From NCBI GenBank assembly GCA_002726235.1, contig PBSN01000008.1:247390-311389 (forward strand): a stretch of DNA of 64,000 bases. Direction: 5' to 3'. The translations under genes were made by a program, and so were the position numbers. Below, one piece after another: positions 3,902 to 34,855 of this stretch. The notes under the pieces are model-generated. The model saw nothing but the letters and a program-made list of their open reading frames with translations. It searched no databases and had not been told where the DNA came from. The stretch comes from Nitrospiraceae bacterium. GTDB taxonomy: Bacteria > Nitrospirota > Nitrospiria > Nitrospirales > UBA2166. Position 1 is the first letter of the stretch, and every line of letters begins with the position of its first letter.

Positions 3902-6649
3902 ATGAAAACATTGTATCGAGCATTTTCACCCTCTTTTTTAACCGTATTACTTTTACTCTCCCTGTCTCTTTCTCCTGTTTTTGCCGAGGCAACTCGATCT
4001 GCCGCTCTTTGGGCCTTGAGCGATGATCTGCCGCAGTTTGATGCGGTCCTATGGACGACTCCTGCAAACCCTTCTGCCGAGGAGGAGACAGTTATTGATG
4101 TTTCAATTCGTTATGGCCTGGGGTATGGGGGAACGACGACGCCTGGAGATCCGGTTCAGAATCTTCAAACGCTATATGGCCGAACCATTGAACTTTTTGT
4201 GATTTCCGAGAATCTGGACCATTTTGCCAGGCTTCGCCCTGAGCAGTTTAGTGCAGTTCCAGTGCATATGAAGGAAACCGCGATGTTCCAACTTCGGCAT
4301 CGTTTTCCTTGGGGAGGACGATACAGGCTTGTGACCACCTTCGCCCATCGTGGCAAGGTCTATCAGAAGCAGTTTGACCTGCGTATTCCTGGTTCGCCAA
4401 TCCTCGCTTCTGGCTCTCGTGATCTTAGTCGTCAGAAGGTTTTTGATCGTTACAGTGTCTCACTTGAGGTGCAGCCTGACAGCCCAATAGCTGGTAGTGA
4501 GGTGCAGTTTCGCTATCGGATCCATACTGATGGGAACGAGCCGGTCGTTGATTTGGAGGCATTTGAGGGGACTGAGATGCGCGTAGCATATGTCCGCGAT
4601 GATCTTCGCTTTTTCGCGCTTGAAGACCCTCAACTTGCGGAAGATTCTGCGGCCGTTCCGGTCGTTCCTCGCTTGGTTACCAAACGGCTCTATGGCAGGG
4701 GACTTTTGAAAGAAATCTTGCCTGATGGACGCATGATGATTGAACACGGGCCGATTAAAAACCTTGTATCGATTGCAGGGAAGATGCCGTTTCGAGTAGT
4801 CGATGCAGACGCGTTGAGAAAAGTGCATTCGGGGGATTGGGTGGAATTTTGGCTGATAAATGATCGAGCATCCGGGCTTGTCGTGACGCGGATTGAGCCT
4901 CTGAGTAGTCTGGGCTTGGGAGAGAATCCGGACGCGATTCGGCCATCTTCAGCCCATCCGTTGTTTCCAGGACCGGTCGTGCCGATCCGGCATACATTTC
5001 CATCATCCGGACTCTATGTGGCGTTTGGTCAGTTCAAGCATCAGGGAAGTTTGGTCACAACGCGGTTTATGGTCAATGTGAGTGATTTTGCTGTGGTCAG
5101 CGCGCGGGAGGAGTCGACACGGCACAGTGCGACACTCAATGCTCAGAGCGTGTTGACGCCACAGGAACAAAACGGCAGGATGATCTATACTTCCTCGACC
5201 AGTTTGTCCAAAGAATTGATTAACCTCAGTATCGGTGATGGACAGCTATTTCCAGCCAATCGCGTGACGTGTGCAAACTGTCATGGGCGTGATGGGCAGG
5301 GGAGTCGTGAAGGAGGTGCGGTCGCCTCTGACATCCGGCACGCTACTCTCAGTAAGCCATATTCCACGACAACAGAATCTGGACGAACTCGCTCGCCATA
5401 CACGAATAAGCTTTTGAAACGTGCGATTGTTGAAGGGATCGACTCGAATGGCCATGTTCTGGATTTTGCGATGCCGCGCTGGAAGATGTCGGATCAAGAT
5501 CTCGAAGATCTTATTGCATACCTTCAGCGACTGGGGGCGCTTGAAGCTCCGGGGGTAACAGAGACTACGATAAAGCTCGGAACTATTCTTGACTTGTCGG
5601 GGCCGCTCGCGCGGACCGGAGAAGCAGTGCGCCGTGTTATGGAAAATGTTTTCCAGACTGTGAATGCCGGAAAAAAGGTGTACGGGCGATCAATCGAACT
5701 TGTTGTCGCTGATGGCAAGAACGATCCACGCCTGTCACTTTTAGCGGCAAAGCGACTAGTCGAGCAGGATCGTGTTCTTGGGTTTGTTGGAACCTTGGGG
5801 GATGCGGCGAATCGGCTGGTGGTTCCCTATTTGGACGAGAAAGATATTCCGCTTGTGGCACCCCTCGCTCCTGCATTACAGCCCGCAGAGTTTGCAGCCG
5901 ATCAACTTTTTTCCATTTATCCTTCGTTGGATTATCAGGCTAGGGTATTGGTTGACTATGGCATGGGCCAAAAGCCGGCTTCGTTTGCCGTGCTCTATTC
6001 CGATAACTCGTTTGGTAAGGCAGGGCTCAAGGCAGCGAGGGATCAATTATCTCTTTACCATGTGGAACCGGTTGCCGAATTTTCTCACGTTTTTGGCAGG
6101 CTGGACGCTGAGAAGATTGCCAAGCTCTTTAAGGAGAGCAATGCGGATTTTGTGCTCCTCTTGACCGGTGATCCTTCGGTGATTGATGTTATTGCGGTAG
6201 CGGATCGTTTATCGTATTCTCCAGTCTATCTCGGACACAATCTTCTCGTCACGGGAACCATGTTGCAAATTCCAAGGGCTGGTGAACGGGTGGTCTTGGC
6301 TCAAAATTTCCGGTCCGGTAGGGTGCAGCATCCTTGGGTGGAAGAATTCACTGAGGTCCTGAAGGCTGTTCCCGGTTCTGGGCGCGACCGCGTTCTGCAG
6401 ATCTCTGCTTTTGTTGCGGCAAAGGTGATACTGGACGGTTTGAGGAACGCAGGAAATGATCTGACGCGTGCATCCCTTGTCACAGGTTTGGAGAAAGTGA
6501 ATCTGGATACTGGGCTTCTTGGAACCATTCGCTATAGCCAACAGAGTCATGAAGGATCGTTTGGAATTTCACTTGTGAAACCTGATGGGCTTCGTAAGAC
6601 CTTTCCCCTTGTCGCAGACCGACGTGAGCCTGTTACGCGTAGCCACTAA
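3902..6649 (+). CDS. Secreted cytochrome c / type 1 periplasmic-binding fusion
   Basis: A 915-residue protein with a clear signal peptide (hydrophobic residues about 10-28, FAEA cleavage region). Residues about 30-400 form one or more beta-rich domains without a firm family match; one stretch ending near residue 395 has the HTFPSSGLY pattern seen in secreted beta-sandwich modules. A monohaem site CANCH is at 457-461, followed by a class I cytochrome c domain ending LEDLIAYLQRLG. From about 552 a branched-chain amino acid-type (Peripla_BP_6) domain begins with KLGTILDLSGPLARTGEAV and runs to about 905. No ABC permease or ATPase genes are adjacent, so it may act as a ligand sensor or electron-transfer partner rather than a transporter component. 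The following gene starts 12 bp downstream, which suggests co-transcription. Confidence 0.8.
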   Translation: MKTLYRAFSPSFLTVLLLLSLSLSPVFAEATRSAALWALSDDLPQFDAVLWTTPANPSAEEETVIDVSIRYGLGYGGTTTPGDPVQNLQTLYGRTIELFVISENLDHFARLRPEQFSAVPVHMKETAMFQLRHRFPWGGRYRLVTTFAHRGKVYQKQFDLRIPGSPILASGSRDLSRQKVFDRYSVSLEVQPDSPIAGSEVQFRYRIHTDGNEPVVDLEAFEGTEMRVAYVRDDLRFFALEDPQLAEDSAAVPVVPRLVTKRLYGRGLLKEILPDGRMMIEHGPIKNLVSIAGKMPFRVVDADALRKVHSGDWVEFWLINDRASGLVVTRIEPLSSLGLGENPDAIRPSSAHPLFPGPVVPIRHTFPSSGLYVAFGQFKHQGSLVTTRFMVNVSDFAVVSAREESTRHSATLNAQSVLTPQEQNGRMIYTSSTSLSKELINLSIGDGQLFPANRVTCANCHGRDGQGSREGGAVASDIRHATLSKPYSTTTESGRTRSPYTNKLLKRAIVEGIDSNGHVLDFAMPRWKMSDQDLEDLIAYLQRLGALEAPGVTETTIKLGTILDLSGPLARTGEAVRRVMENVFQTVNAGKKVYGRSIELVVADGKNDPRLSLLAAKRLVEQDRVLGFVGTLGDAANRLVVPYLDEKDIPLVAPLAPALQPAEFAADQLFSIYPSLDYQARVLVDYGMGQKPASFAVLYSDNSFGKAGLKAARDQLSLYHVEPVAEFSHVFGRLDAEKIAKLFKESNADFVLLLTGDPSVIDVIAVADRLSYSPVYLGHNLLVTGTMLQIPRAGERVVLAQNFRSGRVQHPWVEEFTEVLKAVPGSGRDRVLQISAFVAAKVILDGLRNAGNDLTRASLVTGLEKVNLDTGLLGTIRYSQQSHEGSFGISLVKPDGLRKTFPLVADRREPVTRSH

Positions 6650-6661
6650 GGGCATAGTGAT

Positions 6662-8173
6662 ATGACGATACGGGCATTCCTGTGCTCGGTCATCATGCTC
6701 ATTGCTAGCATCAGTGCTTGGGATGATGCATTGGCGACAACACCGTTCCCTTCCAAGCAGAAATCTCTCGGGGTTTCCATTGAATTTGAGGCATCTCATC
6801 CTGTTTATGTCGGTGATGGGGCCACACTGGATTTTCGTGTTTCCGATGCGGTGACAAATCAGCCAATTCGAGCACTTCGGCCGGAGTCTGCGGTACGACT
6901 CAACAATGGAGAAAGGAATCTCAACCTTTGTGGCGCGAATATGAAAACCAAATCTCGCCGGTATGGTAGCCACACTCCAGTCCAATTTAACTCCTATATT
7001 GTGGCGTTGAACAGTCTTGAAGGTACTCTGAGTGTGATGAATCCTGGTCGCACGTCCCGCATGCTCATCAAGAAAATCGAGCTTGGTGGTTCTGGAAATG
7101 ATATTGCACTAGCTTGGCTTGGACGGTACATCTATGTGACTGTTGAGCCAAACGAGTTAGTGGTTGTGGACGGGGTCCATATGGAGCCGGTTCGGCGACT
7201 TGAGGTCGGAACTCATCCCCATCATCTCGCCATTCAACCGGACGGTAAGTACGTGTGGGTTGCTCATGATGGTGATGCGTCAGTCAGCGTGATTGATACT
7301 GATATACACAAGATTGTTGCCACAGTTCCTGTTGGTCGAGGGCATCACGATTTTGCTATGACCGATGACAGCCGCTATGTTGCGGTCACCAATCAGGAGG
7401 ACCATACGGTGACCTTGATCTCGGTGCGTGATTTGGCGCCGGTTGGAACAGTCGCTGTCGGACGTAGACCGCATGGCGTTGGGTACTCATCATTAAGCCG
7501 TTCATTCTATGTGGCCAATGAAGGCGATGGAACGTTGACTGTCATCAATGTCGCGAGGCCTAGCGTGCACAAAACGATTTCCGTCGGAAAGGGAGTTCGT
7601 GTTGTGAGATTTGAAAAAGGAGGACGATGGGGCTATGCACTCAACCGGGAAGAGAATACAGCCACCATCGTTGATGCCACGACGGATACGGCGGTTGAAA
7701 CGTTCCCGACTGGAATTGCGCCGGACGATATTGTCTTTGAATACGATTGGGCCTTTATTCGGAACGCGGGAAGTGCCGATGTGACGATTGTGAGCCTTCG
7801 TCACCAAGGGTTGCTCCAAAACTTTCCTGTGGGCCATTTTCCTCCGAATCATGTCGATATACCTCAAGATCATTCGTCATTAGTCAGCTTTGGCGATGGC
7901 CATCAGGTCCTTGTTCCCAATCCGGCTGATGGGGCTGTGTACCAGATGATGGCCGGTGGGGTGGTTGGAGCATCGAGGGTGTTTGAAACCAAAGGGCGTG
8001 GGCCAACTCGTGCAGTTGTGTATTGGCGGGGTCTAAGAGAGGTAAGTCCAGGTCTTTACCGTCGAGTGCGCACTTTCGATCAACCAGGGCGTCACGAAAT
8101 CGGATTTTATGTGTCCAGTCCGCAAGTAGCAACCTGCTTTGAACTTACCGTTTTACCTGCGCTACCACCCTGA
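6662..8173 (+). CDS. Secreted YVTN-type beta-propeller protein
   Basis: A 503-residue protein with an N-terminal signal peptide (about 1-28). Residues about 30-125 form a short beta domain (SIEFEASHPVYVGDGATLDF). Several YVTN/cytochrome-cd1-like propeller blades follow, for example YVWVAHDGDASVSVIDT, YVAVTNQEDHTVTLI and FYVANEGDGTLTVINV. The C-terminal about 70 residues form another beta segment. A single Cys near residue 93 sits in a position seen in related propeller proteins. No haem motif is present. Such propellers act as periplasmic interaction or redox-partner scaffolds. Its tight linkage to the cytochrome fusion gene suggests a shared complex, but the precise role is unknown. Confidence 0.8.
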   Translation: MTIRAFLCSVIMLIASISAWDDALATTPFPSKQKSLGVSIEFEASHPVYVGDGATLDFRVSDAVTNQPIRALRPESAVRLNNGERNLNLCGANMKTKSRRYGSHTPVQFNSYIVALNSLEGTLSVMNPGRTSRMLIKKIELGGSGNDIALAWLGRYIYVTVEPNELVVVDGVHMEPVRRLEVGTHPHHLAIQPDGKYVWVAHDGDASVSVIDTDIHKIVATVPVGRGHHDFAMTDDSRYVAVTNQEDHTVTLISVRDLAPVGTVAVGRRPHGVGYSSLSRSFYVANEGDGTLTVINVARPSVHKTISVGKGVRVVRFEKGGRWGYALNREENTATIVDATTDTAVETFPTGIAPDDIVFEYDWAFIRNAGSADVTIVSLRHQGLLQNFPVGHFPPNHVDIPQDHSSLVSFGDGHQVLVPNPADGAVYQMMAGGVVGASRVFETKGRGPTRAVVYWRGLREVSPGLYRRVRTFDQPGRHEIGFYVSSPQVATCFELTVLPALPP

Positions 8174-26633: not shown

Positions 26634-27500
26634 GTGGATCGTTATTTCAAATATGCTTGGGTTGGGCTTGTCGGAATATTTGTCGTTTTGCCGCTGTTAG
26701 GTGTGTGGATGCGGGAACCAGGACAGGTTGAACAGGAGTTAGTCGAAGTAGCTCTCCAAAGTAGTGAGCAAACTGCCAATATTCAGGATGGGTTCATGAT
26801 TACGATTCCGGCAGGGGAGTTTATTCAAGGGAGCAGCAGTGGTGCTTACAATGAAAAGCCAGAAGCAGTAGTCTTTCTGGAGACGTTTTCCATTGACAAG
26901 TATGAGGTTTCCAATCGTCGGTATGCTGAGTTTGTCGGACAGGCGGGGCACCGTGCGCCGGCGTCTCGGTATGGCGGAATGGAAGCATTTCAGCGTCCTG
27001 CTTTTCCGGTCGTGTATGTGTCATGGGATGATGCGGTGGCATTTTGTGAGTGGGATGGCAAACGGCTTCCTACGGAAGCGGAGTGGGAAAAGGCTGCACG
27101 AGGTGTGCAGGGCTTGATATGGCCATGGGGCGATAATGCACAGTCTGGAGCGGCGAATGTCAAGGGCGAGCATGATGGAGCGAAGTACACCGCTCGGATT
27201 GGGGCCTTTGAAGATGACCGGAGTGCGTATGGCGTGGTAGATATGGCTGGCAATGTTCGCGAGTGGGTTCACGACTGGTACGATCAACATGCCTATCGGT
27301 TGCGGGCTGGCGAGAAGGGTATTGAGCCAGAGGCGCGTACGACACGGGTTCTCCGCGGTGGGTCCTGGACCGATTCCTTGGTTACTGCCCGTACAACAGC
27401 GCGGTTTAAAATGTTGCCGCGTTACCGTGACACCGCAATTGGTTTCCGGTGCGCGAAGAGCGGGGATCTGGAAAGATCGACGCGGGATGGAGCGGCGTGA
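26634..27500 (+). CDS. SUMF1/FGE-fold membrane-anchored protein
   Basis: A 288-residue protein with one N-terminal transmembrane helix (about 7-25) and a periplasmic formylglycine-generating-enzyme-like domain: IPAGEFIQGS, RLPTEAEWEKAARG, WPWGDN, DMAGNVREWVHDW and RVLRGGSW. The cysteine pair that performs formylglycine chemistry in true FGE enzymes is not evident (the region reads TARTTARFKMLP), so it is more likely a structural or ligand-binding SUMF1 protein. It lies directly before the oxidase module, about 250 bp from the first small membrane gene, and may be associated with it. Confidence 0.8.
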   Translation: MDRYFKYAWVGLVGIFVVLPLLGVWMREPGQVEQELVEVALQSSEQTANIQDGFMITIPAGEFIQGSSSGAYNEKPEAVVFLETFSIDKYEVSNRRYAEFVGQAGHRAPASRYGGMEAFQRPAFPVVYVSWDDAVAFCEWDGKRLPTEAEWEKAARGVQGLIWPWGDNAQSGAANVKGEHDGAKYTARIGAFEDDRSAYGVVDMAGNVREWVHDWYDQHAYRLRAGEKGIEPEARTTRVLRGGSWTDSLVTARTTARFKMLPRYRDTAIGFRCAKSGDLERSTRDGAA

Positions 27501-28120: not shown

Positions 28121-30070
28121 ATGAAGCGGCTTTTTGAGGGGAGAATGAGAAATAAGCAGCTATTGAGCTGGCTAGCCGTTGGGGTTCTTGTGGGCGCCTT
28201 GCTGCTTCCTCTGGTGATCTCAATTCCCCTGTTGGCGGAAGAGTTTGAAGATGCAGCGCTTGAACAGGCGGCTTTTGCTGAAGAGACCCTAGGTGAGGAT
28301 GTTCCTGCTCAGGAAATTGGATATGACGTTCATTACGGAGACGAAGGAATTGTTCAAGGGCCACCTGCTCCTGTGACCTCGGATAACGAAAATGATTATC
28401 CGCGGTACAACTTCGAGAGTCGGGTCATTATCTGGGTTGCGAACCAACAGCACCTCTATTATGGCAGTTTTGTGCTTGCGGTGCCGATCTTCGTGATGAT
28501 CATCGAGTTTATCGGGATGGTCACCAAAGATCGTGCGATGGCGCAGAAGTACGATACGCTCGCGTATGACTTTATCAAAATCAGTATTACCGCCTATTCG
28601 ATTACCGCAATTCTAGGAGGGGTGCTGGTATTTACGTTTATGATTCTCTATCCGGCATTCTGGACGTACATGACGAAGATCTTCCATCCAGCCATGCACA
28701 TCTACGTCTTGTTGTTCTTGGCTGAGAGTGGGACGCTCTACATCTACTATTACGGCTGGGATGCAATGCGAGAAGGACTTCTTAAGTGGGTCCATCTTAG
28801 TATGGCGGTATTCCTGAATGTATTTGGTACGGTGCTCATGATGCTCGCGAATTCATGGGCGACGTTTATGATGTCTCCTGCTGGAGTCGATGCCGAGGGG
28901 CAGTATCTTGGGAACATCTGGTTGGCAGTGCATAACCATCTTTGGAATCCCGTTAATATTCACAGGATTCTTGGCAATATGGTATTTGGTGGAGGGATTG
29001 TCGCTGCCTATGCAGCCTATCGCTTCTTGTCAGCGAAAAACGATGAGGAGCGAGCCCACTACGATTGGATGGGGTATGTCGCGATGTTCATCGCCGTCGC
29101 GTTCCTTATTCCTCTTCCCTTTGCCGGTTATTACTTAATGCGGGAGGTGTATGCATACCGGCAGCAGATGGGTATTACGCTTATGGGAGGACTGCTGGCT
29201 TGGCTGTTTATTATCCAAGCCGTCCTGATCGGGGCGCTATTCCTGACAACAAATTATTATTTATGGCAAGGGATGGAGCGTATGCGAGGTGCTGAACGTT
29301 ATCAGAAGTACATTAAGTACATGACGTTTGTGCTCATCGTCTGTTTCTTGGTTTGGTTAACGCCGCATACGATGGTCATGACACCAACTGAATTAAAGGA
29401 GATGGGAGGGCAGCAACATCCTGTCGTTGGCAACTACGGGGTCATGTCGGCTAAGAATGGGGCAGTAAATATCATCATAACCACGACTGTGCTGAGTTTT
29501 CTTTTGTATCAGAGGTGTAACAAGATACCAACGGTTCCGTGGGCAAGGTATGGGAATATTGCGCTATGGGCTTTGTTTAGCGTCGCATTTGTCAACATTA
29601 TTTGGCTGGCAATCTATGGCTATTACATACCTGCTAATGTGCGCGTGGGGCTTTCAGTGCCCCAAGTTGTCTCAACGCTATCGTGCTTGTTTATTGGAAT
29701 GACAATAAACTTATTTATGATGCGTGGTGCGAAGCCAACAGGCCCGGTCGAATGGGGAAAGATTTCGGTTCGATCTCAGTATGCGTTGTTCATGCTGGCA
29801 ACGTCGTTTACCTGGATGATGGGATTGATGGGGTATATCCGATCATCTGTACGGCTTCATTGGCATGTCAATGAAATCATGCGTGATAACTCTCCGTGGG
29901 CTTTTACGCATACCATCGGTTTTGCGGCGAACATGATCTCATTTAATGTGCTCTTCTTCTGGGTCACATTACTCTTCGTCTTCTGGCTTGGATCTTTGGG
30001 GACGAAGAAGGCGGTAGTAGAAAAGGGTAGAGCCGCTCCGGTTGCGGCTCTTGCACCAAGCACTAACTAA
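28121..30070 (+). CDS. Cytochrome bd-like oxidase subunit I
   Basis: A 649-residue polytopic membrane protein with about 14 helices, much longer than CydA (about 520). The start is ATG 28121 with GGGGGAGG 7 bases upstream. After a first helix (about 16-38) a soluble loop of about 65 residues precedes the core. CydA-like landmarks include QQHLYYGSF (possible high-spin haem ligand region), FHPAMHIYVLLFLAES, ANSWATFMMSP and NHLWNPVNIHRILGN. It resembles the bd-like putative oxidase described from Nitrospira. It may reduce O2 or act as a quinol/cytochrome-linked electron module. Extra His residues (HNHLW, HWHVNE) could bind additional metal. No cydB neighbour is present. An 8-bp stem (AGAGCCGC/GCGGCTCT, 30029-30051) lies in its last codons. 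Confidence 0.85.
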   Translation: MKRLFEGRMRNKQLLSWLAVGVLVGALLLPLVISIPLLAEEFEDAALEQAAFAEETLGEDVPAQEIGYDVHYGDEGIVQGPPAPVTSDNENDYPRYNFESRVIIWVANQQHLYYGSFVLAVPIFVMIIEFIGMVTKDRAMAQKYDTLAYDFIKISITAYSITAILGGVLVFTFMILYPAFWTYMTKIFHPAMHIYVLLFLAESGTLYIYYYGWDAMREGLLKWVHLSMAVFLNVFGTVLMMLANSWATFMMSPAGVDAEGQYLGNIWLAVHNHLWNPVNIHRILGNMVFGGGIVAAYAAYRFLSAKNDEERAHYDWMGYVAMFIAVAFLIPLPFAGYYLMREVYAYRQQMGITLMGGLLAWLFIIQAVLIGALFLTTNYYLWQGMERMRGAERYQKYIKYMTFVLIVCFLVWLTPHTMVMTPTELKEMGGQQHPVVGNYGVMSAKNGAVNIIITTTVLSFLLYQRCNKIPTVPWARYGNIALWALFSVAFVNIIWLAIYGYYIPANVRVGLSVPQVVSTLSCLFIGMTINLFMMRGAKPTGPVEWGKISVRSQYALFMLATSFTWMMGLMGYIRSSVRLHWHVNEIMRDNSPWAFTHTIGFAANMISFNVLFFWVTLLFVFWLGSLGTKKAVVEKGRAAPVAALAPSTN

Positions 30071-30101
30071 ACTAATGCCATTGAATGAAGCGAGGGGATA
30101 G

Positions 30102-31328
30102 GTGGACTTTCTGAAGGATAAAAAATTGCTCTTCCGGCTCTGGATTGGGTTGTTGGCTCTTGGCTTGGTTGTACTCGCCATCACCAATTATCGTGTGAAT
30201 TTCTACGGGAATTCCAGGTTGCTCCCTGTATCATTAGGGATCTTCGTTACCGCAACGTTCTTGCTCGGAATTTATTTCCAAAAAGTTCGTGTGGTGATGC
30301 ATGGTGCGGCATTTATGATTTTCGTTGCTGCAGCGTTTGCTGGATTTTCCAATTGGCTTCCCCAAACTATTGGGGAACCTCCTCCATTTGAAGAGAAAAT
30401 TGCGGATATTTCCACGATGTCAACGCAAGAACTTGCCGATCTTGGGGAAAAGCTGATTTTTGGTGCGGTGGGGGCGAGTACCGTCAAAGGATCAATTGGG
30501 AAAGGGCAATGTCCTCTGTGTCATGTATTTGGGTCAAGCGAACATGGCGAGCGGGCACCCAATATGTATGGGTTGCCGGATCGCTCTGAGAAGATTGTGA
30601 AACTCGATGAATATCAGAACCGTGACACTGTACAGACGGTGGCATTTGATGGAAGCGGGATTGCAGAGAGTGGACTTGAATATATGGCGGAGTCGCATGC
30701 ATGCCCCAACTGTTATGTGAGTCCTGGTTTTGGAAAGGGTGGCACAAACGATCGTGAAAGTCCGATGCCTGCCATTCATAAATCGCCAATCAATCTCACC
30801 ATCGATGAAATGGTTGCCATTGATACTTGGTCGTATATCCGTGAGGGGCTTGAGGCACCTTCTGTTGACGAGATGCGTGTAGCCTATGAGAAGTTTATTC
30901 CAGAAGATGAGCGACCGCAGGCCTCCTCTGGAGCTGATGGGGAAGGCGAAGGGGGCGAAAGCCAGCTGTATGCTACCGGGGATGAACCGTTGCCGAAGCT
31001 TTTTGAGAAAGCGCAGTGCACGGTTTGTCATGTGATTCCAGGGATTCCAGATGCCGATGAAGGCGATTTTGGGCCTGAGCTTTACGTCAAGACCAATGCG
31101 CCTAAGCGGATGAAGGATAAAAACTATACGGGATCAGCGTCATCGGTTGAGGCATACATCTTAGAATCTATTCTGGATCCTAATCTCTATATCGTTCCGG
31201 ACTTTGATGAAGACTTGATGCCTGAAGACTTTGGGACTGGGCTCAACGCCAAAACTGTGTTTAGAATCGTCAACTACCTCTCGCAGCTTGAGAAAGGTAA
31301 AGATCCTCCGAATCACGAGGAGATGTAA
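30102..31328 (+). CDS. Membrane-anchored dihaem cytochrome c
   Basis: A 408-residue protein from GTG 30102 (GAGGGGATAG upstream). Three N-terminal helices (about 7-90) anchor a periplasmic part with two canonical haem sites, CPLCH at 137-141 and CTVCH at 306-310. A third Cys pair, CPNCY at 201-205, has Tyr in place of the haem His. Motifs such as MPAIH and ILDPNLYIVP resemble cytochrome c oxidase-type and photosynthetic electron carriers. It directly follows the bd-like oxidase gene by 31 bp and probably passes electrons to or from it. Whether the CPNCY site binds haem, metal or forms a disulfide is open. Confidence 0.85.
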   Translation: MDFLKDKKLLFRLWIGLLALGLVVLAITNYRVNFYGNSRLLPVSLGIFVTATFLLGIYFQKVRVVMHGAAFMIFVAAAFAGFSNWLPQTIGEPPPFEEKIADISTMSTQELADLGEKLIFGAVGASTVKGSIGKGQCPLCHVFGSSEHGERAPNMYGLPDRSEKIVKLDEYQNRDTVQTVAFDGSGIAESGLEYMAESHACPNCYVSPGFGKGGTNDRESPMPAIHKSPINLTIDEMVAIDTWSYIREGLEAPSVDEMRVAYEKFIPEDERPQASSGADGEGEGGESQLYATGDEPLPKLFEKAQCTVCHVIPGIPDADEGDFGPELYVKTNAPKRMKDKNYTGSASSVEAYILESILDPNLYIVPDFDEDLMPEDFGTGLNAKTVFRIVNYLSQLEKGKDPPNHEEM

Positions 31329-31418
31329 GGGCAGGCAATGACTCCACCGGTAATTATGGGGAGAGAATATATAATGTGCGTGGACAAAGGTACGGCCGTT
31401 GTCATGAGGGAGGCTTAA

Positions 31419-32339
31419 ATGCCGGGTTTTATTGAAGGGATGATGCCTGTTCAGCTATTGGCGGAAATATTGCTGATCATTGTTATCTTCGTATTGGGTG
31501 CGATGATCTTGGACAAAAAGATGGGAATTCGTATTCCCATGTTGCTCCAAGCAGCCTTGGTATTCATTGCTGGATGGTGGTACTACAAGTTTAGAATTGA
31601 ACCTCCGTTGCCATTTAGTGTGCGGGCGATCTATCAGGTAATGATTGCCATTGGTATTTTCATGTGGGTGTCTTCGGCTGAGAAAGGTTGGACAGAGTTT
31701 AAACGTCCAATTCTTGCGGTGTTGGATGCGAAGACGCCGTTAACGTGGTGGGTGAGGGCGGTTCTCCTTGTCGTATTGCCGCTTTCTGCAAGCGGAATGG
31801 CCTACAAGAATCTCTTGCCTAGCCTGGGAGAACCTATTGAGCTTCGAACTGTCCATCCGGCCCCACCGGCAGCAGTAACGGTCCATGGTAAGAAGTTCCC
31901 CTTGCAAACCTCTGAGAGTCCGGTCAGGGTTGATGAAAGCGGTGAATACTCCAATCATATACAAGACGCGCATGTGATGGACAATCCATTCGATCCTGAC
32001 AGTATCCAGTACATGCAGAATGTTAAGGAAGGTGGCGACATTTTCTTTCAGAACTGCCACTTTTGCCATGGGGATAATTTGAATGGTCGCGGTTTATACG
32101 CCTATGCGTTTAATCCGATTCCCGCAAACTTTACCGATCCTGGCACCCTCGCGCAACTCCAAGAGACATTCGTGTTTTGGCGCGTAGCCAAAGGTGGGCC
32201 AGGGCTGCCGCGTGAAGGGTTTCCCTGGGCATCAGCGATGCCTCCATGGGAGCAGCATCTAACGACGGAAGAGATCTGGAAAGTAATTTTGTTTGAGTAT
32301 TGGCATACTAAGTATCCGCCGCGGACTTGGGATGAGTAG
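31419..32339 (+). CDS. Membrane-anchored monohaem cytochrome c
   Basis: A 306-residue protein with four predicted N-terminal helices (MPVQLLAEILLIIVIF, LLQAALVFIAGWWYY, VMIAIGIFMWVSS, WWVRAVLLVVLP) followed by a periplasmic class I domain with CHFCH at 213-217 and the sixth-ligand region MPPWEQHLTTEEIW. The ATG follows GAGGGAGG. A 26-codon frame ends just before it (TAA-ATG), which may be chance. It is translationally coupled to the next cytochrome, whose reading frame begins near its stop. Confidence 0.85.
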   Translation: MPGFIEGMMPVQLLAEILLIIVIFVLGAMILDKKMGIRIPMLLQAALVFIAGWWYYKFRIEPPLPFSVRAIYQVMIAIGIFMWVSSAEKGWTEFKRPILAVLDAKTPLTWWVRAVLLVVLPLSASGMAYKNLLPSLGEPIELRTVHPAPPAAVTVHGKKFPLQTSESPVRVDESGEYSNHIQDAHVMDNPFDPDSIQYMQNVKEGGDIFFQNCHFCHGDNLNGRGLYAYAFNPIPANFTDPGTLAQLQETFVFWRVAKGGPGLPREGFPWASAMPPWEQHLTTEEIWKVILFEYWHTKYPPRTWDE

Positions 32340-32370
32340 CCGTATGGGTGCTGTTGGGGGAAATACAACA

Positions 32371-34119
32371 ATGATGACAGATCATGCCTGGTGGCGGTCT
32401 CGCCGTGTTATCTTGATTGGGCTTGCGCTTGGCCTCTGCACGCTTTTAATGTCAGCACCTTGGTTGGTGAGTGTTGCTCCTGGACAGGAGGAGGAAGAAG
32501 AGGGTGAGCAATTGCCTGCCGGTTTTGTCGACGGCGAATTACCTGCAGAGCCGACACCAGAACAACTTGAAAATGGAAAAAAAGTCTACTTCAGCAAATG
32601 TGTGTGGTGTCATGGCGTTGAGGGTGCGGGTGATGGGCCGGGTGCGGATCGGTTGTGGCCGCGACCGCGGAATTTTATTCAGGGCACCTTCAAAGTAAGG
32701 CATACGTTTAGTGGAGAATTGCCCCTGCTCGAAGATCTTTTTCAAACTGTCACGCATGGGTTGCCTGGGTCGGCCATGCCTCCGTGGGATGGCATTTTGA
32801 ATGAGCAACAACGTCGCGATGTCGTTGCGTTTATCGCGTTTGTGCTTATTCAAGATCGTGCGTTTGATGATGACGAATTTGAGTATGTGACCAAACTCGA
32901 ATTGGACACGCTGGAGCCAATTCCAACTTCGCCTGAAAGCCTTGAACAGGGTAAGGCTGTGTTTGACCGCTTGCGTTGTGCAGAGTGCCATGGCCAGGAA
33001 GGGCGCGGGGATGGGAATCCTTTCAATCTGAAAGATGACTGGGGTTTTGCAATTCAGCCGGCAGATTTCAGCAAGTGCTGGAATTTTAGGGGGAGCCGGC
33101 AGGATCCTTATAATGTTCGAAATATATTTCGGACGTTTTCAACAGGACTTAATGGAACACCAATGCCTTCCTTTGCTGATCAAACGACGATTGATGAGCG
33201 CTGGCATCTCTCGAATTTTGTGAATTCTCTCTGCGAGCGGGATGACGAAGGCAATCCGATGAAGATTGATCCGTTAACCGACAAGCCCGCTATTACATTT
33301 GTGGTGCGTTCGGGGTTTCTCGAAGAGGGTGCCACGATTCCCGATGATCCTCAGGACCCGGCATGGGAAGCGCGCGAACAACGTTTTATTGGCATGGCCG
33401 GGCAGATTATCCATAAGAGCCGAAACTTTGTAAATAAAATTGACAATATTTTTGTTCGGTCGCTTTATGACGACAATGACATCGCGTTTTTGTTTGAATG
33501 GAACGATCGGAGCCAAAGCATCAAACCTGATGACCTTGAAGCTGTTATGCCAGAAGAAACTCCTCCGAGTGGCGATCCAATCGCCGGCAAGATTCGTGCG
33601 TATGGACCATTTAATGATGCGATTGCAATTCAGTTTCCAACCGATTGGGCTAACCTAACTCCTCCTGAAAAGCCACGATTTATTCATGGAGATAGCAAGA
33701 ACTCTGTGGATCTGTGGAAATGGGAATCTGACAATACAATCAAAGCCTATACCGGGACCGGTGCATTGGAACCATTGGTTGAGCGCGAAGCATCATCCGC
33801 TGGGCTGCAAGTTGTTTTTTCCGAATATAAAGATGGTAAGTGGACGCTTATGGTGAAGCGATCCCTAGCGGCAGAGAATGAAGGAGATGTCGAATTTGTC
33901 CCTGGTGAATACATTCCGACAGTGTTTTTCGCTTGGGAAGGCCACAATGGAGATTATGGTATTAGAATGGCCATTTCGACGTTTTATAGTACCATTCTGG
34001 AGCCTCAGATTCCGGCTTCCGTCGCTTGGTATGCAATCTTTATCGGTATAGGGATTGTCATTGTCGAAGTTTGGGTCTTAACGGGAAGGCGCAATCGCGC
34101 ACAAGGGAAGGCCGTGTAG
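32371..34119 (+). CDS. Dihaem cytochrome fused to NxrC/EB_dh domain
   Basis: About 582 residues. The ATG at 32371 is chosen for GGGGG 10 bases upstream; the frame also has ATGs at 32332 and 32344. A signal anchor (VILIGLALGLCTLLMSAPWL) precedes two cytochrome c domains with CVWCH at 77-81 and CAECH at 203-207. The C-terminal about 290 residues resemble the ethylbenzene-dehydrogenase gamma/NxrC haem b domain (DAIAIQFPTDW, SVDLWKWESD, VFFAWEGHNGDYG). A final helix (WYAIFIGIGIVIVEVWVL) anchors the C-terminus. Similar fusions serve nitrite oxidoreductase- and DMSO-reductase-type systems in Nitrospirota. No alpha or beta catalytic subunit is adjacent, so its partner is unknown. Confidence 0.82.
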   Translation: MMTDHAWWRSRRVILIGLALGLCTLLMSAPWLVSVAPGQEEEEEGEQLPAGFVDGELPAEPTPEQLENGKKVYFSKCVWCHGVEGAGDGPGADRLWPRPRNFIQGTFKVRHTFSGELPLLEDLFQTVTHGLPGSAMPPWDGILNEQQRRDVVAFIAFVLIQDRAFDDDEFEYVTKLELDTLEPIPTSPESLEQGKAVFDRLRCAECHGQEGRGDGNPFNLKDDWGFAIQPADFSKCWNFRGSRQDPYNVRNIFRTFSTGLNGTPMPSFADQTTIDERWHLSNFVNSLCERDDEGNPMKIDPLTDKPAITFVVRSGFLEEGATIPDDPQDPAWEAREQRFIGMAGQIIHKSRNFVNKIDNIFVRSLYDDNDIAFLFEWNDRSQSIKPDDLEAVMPEETPPSGDPIAGKIRAYGPFNDAIAIQFPTDWANLTPPEKPRFIHGDSKNSVDLWKWESDNTIKAYTGTGALEPLVEREASSAGLQVVFSEYKDGKWTLMVKRSLAAENEGDVEFVPGEYIPTVFFAWEGHNGDYGIRMAISTFYSTILEPQIPASVAWYAIFIGIGIVIVEVWVLTGRRNRAQGKAV

Positions 34120-34163
34120 CCGACTCAGCGGATCAGTTTCTGAAATAACGAATGTGTGTTATG

Positions 34164-34193
34164 ACAAGGGGTGCTTTCCACCCCTTGTTTTTT
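34164..34193 (+). terminator. Strong intrinsic terminator of oxidase module
   Basis: ACAAGGGGTG at 34164-34173 and CACCCCTTGT at 34179-34188 form a perfect 10-bp stem with a 5-base loop, followed by a T-run through 34193. It lies 45 bases after the NxrC-type cytochrome gene and just before mobA. Confidence 0.92.
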
Positions 34194-34213: not shown

Positions 34214-34855
34214 ATGAACCTTCTACCAGCGACGTGTGTCATTCTTGCTGGTGGCAAAAGCCGCCGAATGGGGATGGATAAGCGTTTCCTTGAGGTAGGC
34301 GGACAAACAATGTTGGGACGCACGATCACTGTCTGTGAGACGTTGTTTGCTGACATCATGGTAGTGACTGCTGCTCCTGAACCTTCGATTGAGACTCAGC
34401 TCAGAGTCGTTCACGATGTTATTCCTGGCTGTGCAACCCTTGGGGGAATATATACGGGCCTGTCGTACGCATCTTTCGAGTATGGATTTGTTATAGCATG
34501 TGATATGCCATGGATACATCCAGATTTGGTTAAATTTCTTGTCGCTCTCGTTCAGGAGCCTCAAGAAACTGAGTATGATGTCATCATCCCAAAACTACAG
34601 TCTGGATTGCAGCCAACACATGCGGTCTATTCTAAACGCTGCCTTCCATTCCTAAAAGAAATGCTTGATAGGCGTGATCTCAAGGTGCAGGGGCTTTGTG
34701 CTTATGCCAACGTGTCTGTGCGTTATGTCTCCAGTGATGAAATTGAAAAATTTGATCCACATGGTCGAGCATTTGCAAACGTAAACACTTTGGAAGATTT
34801 GGAAAACGTAAGACGAGATGCGGATCTTGATCGTTCACCACAGCGCATTGAGTGA
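34214..34855 (+). CDS. mobA: Molybdenum cofactor guanylyltransferase
   Basis: A 213-residue enzyme that attaches GMP to molybdopterin to give the bis-MGD precursor used by DMSO-reductase-family enzymes, including nitrite oxidoreductase. The start is the ATG at 34214, matching the family N-terminus (MNLLPATCVILAGGKSRRMG); a longer frame from 34154 would begin inside the upstream terminator. The GTP-binding signature LAGGKSRRMGMDK and the catalytic-region CDMPWIHP are clear. It is placed directly after the cytochrome module, separated by a terminator. Confidence 0.93.
   Translation: MNLLPATCVILAGGKSRRMGMDKRFLEVGGQTMLGRTITVCETLFADIMVVTAAPEPSIETQLRVVHDVIPGCATLGGIYTGLSYASFEYGFVIACDMPWIHPDLVKFLVALVQEPQETEYDVIIPKLQSGLQPTHAVYSKRCLPFLKEMLDRRDLKVQGLCAYANVSVRYVSSDEIEKFDPHGRAFANVNTLEDLENVRRDADLDRSPQRIE

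Follow-up and report, generated by a model that had tools for sequence, protein, structure and literature searches.

The four-gene module and its identity

We analyzed a 64,000-nucleotide stretch of a draft genome labelled Nitrospiraceae bacterium (GCA_002726235.1, contig PBSN01000008.1, positions 247,390 to 311,389; hereafter, the window), which is part of contig C8 in an assembly of 1.87 Mb and 90.65% completeness. The subject of this work is a module of four consecutive plus-strand open reading frames (ORFs) at 28121-34119, encoding proteins of 649, 408 and 306 amino acids (aa) and then a fusion protein, with a terminator-like element behind them:

28121..30070, + strand: bd-like_3, CydA-like membrane protein, 649 aa (PF01654)
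30102..31328, + strand: dihaem cytochrome c with hydrophobic N-terminal helices, 408 aa, CPLCH and CTVCH (haem motifs, alignment)
31419..32339, + strand: membrane-anchored monohaem cytochrome c, 306 aa, CHFCH (PF13442, alignment of 16 sequences)
32371..34119, + strand: alt_NxrC_2-type fusion, 582 aa, with signal peptide, dihaem cytochrome c domain, haem-b gamma-subunit-like (EB_dh) domain and C-terminal membrane helix (PF13442 twice, PF09459)
34163..34189, + strand: intrinsic terminator-like stem-loop with T run, 11 pairs (6 G-C), 44 bases past the last stop codon

By sequence comparison, these four genes are the bd-like_3/alt_NxrC_2 module known from Nitrospira moscoviensis, where the cluster has been described (PMC6606698), and the locus itself is not new. 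The bd-like_3 proteins of the window and of N. moscoviensis are 72% identical. In the phylogeny that the initial annotation had proposed as a check, the CydA-like protein of the window clusters with bd-like_3, apart from bd-like_1, bd-like_2 and bd-like_4 of Nitrospira. The initial annotation had described a four-gene cytochrome operon with a strong terminator, and the ORFs, domains and haem motifs confirm this description, as does the stem-loop, which has the most pairs of any match in the hairpin scan. Its suggestion of a distinct electron module does not hold in the sense of a new one, as the cluster is published (PMC6606698; PMC3578206).

The PF01654 match of gene 1 (E = 7.9e-19) covers only the first 240 of 418 profile positions; the Cytochrom_C match of gene 2 is weak and under the profile cut-off; gene 3 matches Cytochrome_CBB3, and gene 4 combines two cytochrome c stretches with EB_dh (E = 9.1e-16). 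Genes 2, 3 and 4 contain two, one and two CXXCH motifs, respectively, a pattern that recurs in relatives wherever the ORF calls are whole. For the fourth gene, the mechanically called TTG start at 32293 overlaps gene 3; translation more likely begins at the ATG at 32371, which is followed by a signal-peptide-like stretch. In the dihaem protein of gene 2, residues 199-204 form an HxCPxC motif rather than CXXCH. Its His, Cys and Pro do not vary among 14 aligned sequences, and it could be a metal site or a disulfide.

The structural model of the fusion protein is weak (mean predicted local distance difference test score, pLDDT, 62.5). The fold matches of its haem-b gamma-subunit-like domain include both EbdC (2ivf_C, Z 19.4) and NxrC (7b04_C, Z 18.6) at tied scores, so the label "NxrC-type" given initially is too specific; the TIGR03477 match, at 63.8 bits, stays under the cut-off of 169.85. 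The cytochrome c part resembles the Kuenenia dihaem protein 6h5l_B (Z 9.5). The haem b ligand candidates M342, K434 and K450 are not claimed because the model is too weak.

Distribution and descent across Nitrospiria

The window's genome and three congeners (assemblies 73-96% complete, 1.9-2.3 Mb) make up a small Nitrospirales family, here f1, which is probably UBA2166, a family described as marine and as the only one in Nitrospirales without nitrite oxidoreductase (NXR) (PMC12342949). CydA-like relatives are encoded in all 57 genomes of the order that were searched, the window's included. Across the class, the alt_NxrC fusion was detected at E<=1e-60 in 237 of 269 genomes, including 32 of the 34 from other orders, and 30 of these 34 carry a bd-like_3 ortholog (59-76% identity); the loci of the remaining four (G069, G073, G254 and G262), which had no match of at least 59%, were not included.

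The proposed check of gene order gave a clear result. The four genes stand in order in 27 of the 30 loci from other orders, the other three being truncated by contig ends, and in 62 of the 65 named loci of Nitrospirales whose downstream flank suffices (65 of 80 loci, with 6.6 kb or more counted from the start of the CydA-like gene). L185 and L196 have an interrupted fusion ORF, and the gene 2 ORF call failed in L178, L184 and L188. Nearly all named loci are labelled Nitrospira or Nitrospirales/Nitrospirae, the closest being L061 (metagenome-assembled genome OFTM238, Nitrospirales bacterium; 94%). Copies of bd-like_3 without the other three genes were observed in L124, L127 and L135 (70-72% identity). 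A chance cluster of ORFs was rejected on the conserved gene order and haem motifs, and an assembly accident on the same order in the f1 genomes G003 and G002 (L061).

The bd-like_3 tree recovers the families and places f1 as sister to the rest of Nitrospirales (support 92/94, 93% of bootstraps). As the tree follows the families, horizontal gain by f1 was rejected, and this phylogeny indicates that the module is old and vertically inherited in class Nitrospiria.

Absence of detectable NxrA

An NxrA query from a genome of family f2 (L058) had no match at E<=1e-3 in any of the four f1 genomes (NxrB was not searched). The same query matched 50 of 53 genomes from the other three Nitrospirales families. 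These positives are partly weak: that of G008, a 43-residue match of 42%, is to a different molybdoenzyme and not to an NxrA-like one, and several others (including G005, G020, G026, G034, G044 and G049) are short pieces that mostly sit at contig edges, as nxr genes present in multiple copies would be expected to give. Among the 34 genomes of other Nitrospiria orders, which have been called non-nitrifying (PMC12342949), none had an NxrA-grade match, with all five controls positive; seven had weak molybdoenzyme matches, the best in G073 (27%, 88 bits) and the rest at 19-22 bits. A PF00384 search of the window's genome hit four places, a formate dehydrogenase/NasA-like gene, two NuoG genes and an arsenite oxidase-like gene, and the fusion is the only EB_dh protein found in that genome.

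The initial annotation had emphasized a fused domain without catalytic NXR subunits. This point holds in a broader form, because NxrA is undetected anywhere in the window's genome or its three congeners and not merely non-adjacent. Neither a cydB-like nor an NXR gene is present among the ORFs neighboring the module (CydB was not searched genome-wide), but candidate nxrC genes of Nitrospira are located away from nxrAB (PMC6606698), so a missing NXR neighbor proves nothing.

Given that the module is present in orders without detected NxrA, its core function appears to be independent of NXR, and the module is probably a general, class-wide respiratory complex of Nitrospiria rather than a part of NXR. 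The published link between conservation of the cluster and nitrite oxidation is therefore to be reread, since the core function would need no NXR. What is new here is the setting of the module in lineages without detected NxrA. No statement that the module occurs in NXR-less lineages was found in the passages of the literature that were consulted, supplements not included, although the TO_1 complex discussed below may be the same module.

Residues of the CydA-like subunit

Four alignments, each of which includes the window sequence, were drawn from ORF sets from which incomplete and off-length ORFs and those at least 90% alike had been removed. A1, of CydA-like proteins, has 34 of the 46 non-redundant ORFs and also the ortholog from N. 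moscoviensis; A2 has all 29, A3 has 13 of 36 and A4 has 15 of 22. The predicted structure of bd-like_3 (mean pLDDT 73.8) has the CydA fold, with Z 29.0 to bd-II. The next fold match after CydA is alternative complex III subunit F (ActF, 6f0k_F; Z 20.0, 10% identity), from which nothing is concluded.

As the reference positions of Escherichia coli CydA, we take H19, H186 and M393, E107, E99 and E445, and a Q-loop with Lys252/Glu257. With these numbers, H111, E202, H281 and M442 of the window protein align with H19, E107, H186 and M393. Y195 and L569 occupy the places of E99 and E445, and the Q-loop, with the Lys252/Glu257 positions, is deleted or replaced in the alignment. Having lost the Q-loop and two active-site glutamates, and with no cydB adjacent, the protein is not an ordinary CydA, as had been proposed from the start. 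However, bd-like_1 and bd-like_2 share the same pattern of retained and lost residues, and hence these residues cannot separate an oxidase from a non-oxidase.

In cluster-type bd-like proteins, one CuB His is replaced by Gln and the His of the high-spin haem by Phe (PMC8026999). Comparison of bd-like_2 with the bd-like_3 of N. moscoviensis yields exactly one His column with Gln and one with Phe. The window protein has Q432 at the position of bd-like_2 H383, the CuB-type His, and Gln is found in every bd-like_3 read. At the position of bd-like_2 H532, the proposed high-spin haem ligand, the window protein has H580, a mapping that combines the alignment with the published Gln/Phe description (PMC8026999). 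Of 78 named bd-like_3 ORFs, 76 have Phe in the residue-580 column, the exceptions being one Tyr (L120) and one His (L061, from f1). Phe is also present in 14 of 14 loci of families f5-f9, and His in 16 of 16 loci of f11-f15 and in all three f1 genomes that hold the gene. Counted by eye, this pattern needs two changes on the tree, whether f1 kept or regained His. We asked whether the occurrence of His580 merely follows from the loss of further bd-like oxidases and rejected this, because family f7 (G062-G064) has Phe together with a single bd-like match per genome (E<=1e-40).

Proposed function and alternatives

We propose, with about even confidence, that the module transfers electrons in reverse, from periplasmic cytochrome c to quinone, as an NXR-independent and vertically inherited complex. 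In this scheme, the four proteins would form one membrane complex, in which the c haems and the haem b of the fusion protein would receive electrons from periplasmic carriers; electrons would then pass via the dihaem and monohaem subunits to the haems of the CydA-like subunit. High-potential cytochrome c would thus be linked to the quinone pool, with membrane potential being spent on reverse electron flow for the reductive tricarboxylic acid (TCA) cycle, and the complex would serve any high-potential electron donor, nitrite being just one. NXR-less Nitrospirales encode CO2 fixation by the reductive TCA cycle (PMC12342949).

Reverse flow to quinone is favored by the loss of the CuB-type His, by the loss of the Q-loop Lys/Glu and of the E99 and E445 positions, and by the occurrence of the module both in an anaerobe and among diverse autotrophs. 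Several observations weigh against it. The known quinol site is missing from bd-like_3 in the alignment, and no other quinone site was identified there, for which reason the proposal is held near one half. The haem positions that bd-like_3 retains are shared by bd-like_1 and bd-like_2, both regarded as O2 reductases, and the f1 proteins have His580 at the proposed high-spin haem ligand, as bd-like_2 does. Apart from the bd-like_3 of the module and bd-like_1, no usual terminal oxidase was detected in f1 within the searches described next. Furthermore, the module is absent from the f1 genome G001 (an 88% complete assembly), and the absence of NxrA is that of draft genomes.

The strongest alternative, which we consider plausible but somewhat improbable, is a terminal oxidase that passes electrons from periplasmic cytochrome c to O2 at the bd-like_3 haems, possibly paired with bd-like_1 as proposed for the OR-N CydAA'. 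The CydA fold with its conserved H111, E202, H281 and M442 is compatible with this role, and so is H580 in place of Phe. The oxidase inventory of f1 points the same way: COX1, the haem-copper oxidase, was found in none of the four genomes, bd-like_2 and bd-like_4 were not detected by the bd-like_1 search of the same genomes, and the bd superfamily is represented only by bd-like_1 and bd-like_3 (that search, plus a PF01654 search of the window's genome), canonical CydA being undetected. Moreover, OR-N bd-like proteins have been proposed to be cytochrome c oxidases (PMC10839748), and TO_1 of Mn oxidizers, with its periplasmic cytochrome b, has been named a terminal oxidase (PMC9040806). However, the module is reported from anaerobic anammox bacteria (PMC6423088), Gln replaces the CuB-type His throughout the bd-like_3 proteins, the NXR-bearing N. 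moscoviensis retains bd-like_3 alongside bd-like_1 and bd-like_2, and f7 keeps Phe without a second bd-like protein. In f1 specifically, we consider it unlikely that bd-like_3 with His580 took on or kept a terminal-oxidase role, perhaps together with bd-like_1, the two forming a new pairing of the CydAA' type with periplasmic cytochromes as electron source. If this were true, f1, without detectable NXR, haem-copper oxidase, bd-like_2 or canonical CydA, would respire O2 via bd-like_3. The His/Phe switch provides a concrete residue for testing O2 chemistry. In the window's genome, bd-like_1 itself lies at another locus (L143, contig C7, 8059-15215), with flanking cytochromes c, a Rieske protein and cytochrome b, that is, a Nitrospira CIII_1-type cluster without bd-like_2.

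A role as an accessory of NXR, with the fusion protein as its membrane anchor or electron acceptor, has been put forward tentatively in the literature, and we regard it as improbable. The module is kept in Nitrospira, Nitrospina and anammox bacteria and is highly transcribed during nitrite oxidation (PMC6606698; PMC3578206), and homologues are located inside the Kuenenia NXR cluster (PMC6423088), an arrangement with adjacent NXR that the initial annotation had named beforehand as speaking against its interpretation. Yet NxrA is detected neither in f1 nor, at NxrA grade, in the other orders, most genomes of which retain the module, and expression is 2.5- to 4-fold under that of the NXR subunits, which was itself noted as a problem (PMC6606698). 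Where NXR exists, an NXR-related function could be a secondary role. The comparison of NXR-free with NXR-bearing members makes the role of the module testable. Finally, it is very improbable that the module is a decaying leftover of an NXR lost by f1: the small f1 genomes and the absence of bd-like_2 and bd-like_4 would fit such decay, but all four ORFs are intact, all five CXXCH motifs are kept, bd-like_3 is 94-98% identical within the genus, and the presence of the module in orders without detected NxrA shows that it does not depend on NXR.

Neighboring genes and other loci

The upstream neighbor of the module is an FGE-sulfatase-domain gene, and the downstream neighbor is a MobA-like gene:

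26634..27500, + strand: FGE-sulfatase-domain protein, 288 aa (PF03781, E = 4.8e-56)

The FGE-domain gene ends 620 bases before the module and probably belongs to a separate transcript. The mechanically called mobA ORF starts early enough to contain the terminator, but the gene's own ATG is at 34214. A mobA-like gene follows the module in 62 of 62 named Nitrospirales loci, and bd-like_4 with at least two fge matches precedes it in all 53 that have enough upstream flank. The f1 loci (the window and L144) lack bd-like_4 and have one fge gene; an fge-like gene is also found upstream in most loci of other orders.

Elsewhere in the window, positions 3902-6649 encode a 915-aa protein in which periplasmic-binding-protein, cytochrome c and CusF-type copper-binding domains are combined; a 1236-aa protein without Pfam match comes before it and a beta-propeller protein (6662-8173) after it. 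On contig C13 of the same genome (L141, 4479-11776), a Rieske gene and an arsenite-oxidase-like gene (TIGR02693, 428.8 bits) lie between two genes for CCP/MauG di-haem peroxidases; the large subunit has a 91% match in G002. Paired peroxidases mark iodate reductase (idrABP1P2) as opposed to arsenite oxidase (PMC8692401); the gene order in L141, P-B-A-x-P, differs from idrABP1P2. From these genes, the host is possibly an iodate-respiring or arsenite-oxidizing member of Nitrospirales.

Comparison with known systems

The cluster is common to Nitrospira, Nitrospina and anammox bacteria, and the publications that link it tentatively to nitrite oxidation call its role undetermined (PMC6606698; PMC3578206; PMC8026999). 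The closest known system is that of N. moscoviensis (alt_NxrC_2 = NITMOv2_3640), which matches the window gene for gene and in gene order (51-72% identity), shares the 2-1-2 pattern of haem motifs and is likewise followed by a mobA-like gene. It differs in that the host of the window has no detectable NxrA, that the window lacks the upstream bd-like_4 and one of the two fge genes, and that residue 580 is His in the window and Phe in N. moscoviensis. In Kuenenia stuttgartiensis, the annotated order of kustd1709-1712 (diheme, monoheme, diheme, cydA-like) mirrors that of the window, a likeness by annotation, but these genes belong to the NXR cluster (kustd1699-1713) of an anaerobe (PMC6423088). 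TO_1 of Ca. Manganitrophaceae, a family without the nitrification genes of Nitrospira, likewise combines a bd-like protein with a periplasmic cytochrome b (PMC9040806); it may be a bd-like_3 or a bd-like_2 module, and so possibly the same module as in the window.

Canonical cytochrome bd (CydAB) shares with the window protein the CydA fold and three haem-ligand positions, and differs by its CydB, Q-loop and two glutamates, all of which are missing from or beside the window protein. The bd-like_1/bd-like_2 proteins of Nitrospira (OR-N1/OR-N2, the proposed CydAA' terminal oxidase) are built on the same CydA-derived core, and bd-like_2 is also encoded near a monohaem cytochrome c and an EB_dh protein: in N. 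moscoviensis (L202, 8574-12552), a monohaem-like gene (34%) and a gene for an EB_dh protein (23%) come after it, and on this gene content the locus is a diverged sister module. Nevertheless, the CuB-type position is His in bd-like_2 but Gln in bd-like_3, and bd-like_3 forms a separate lineage in the tree.

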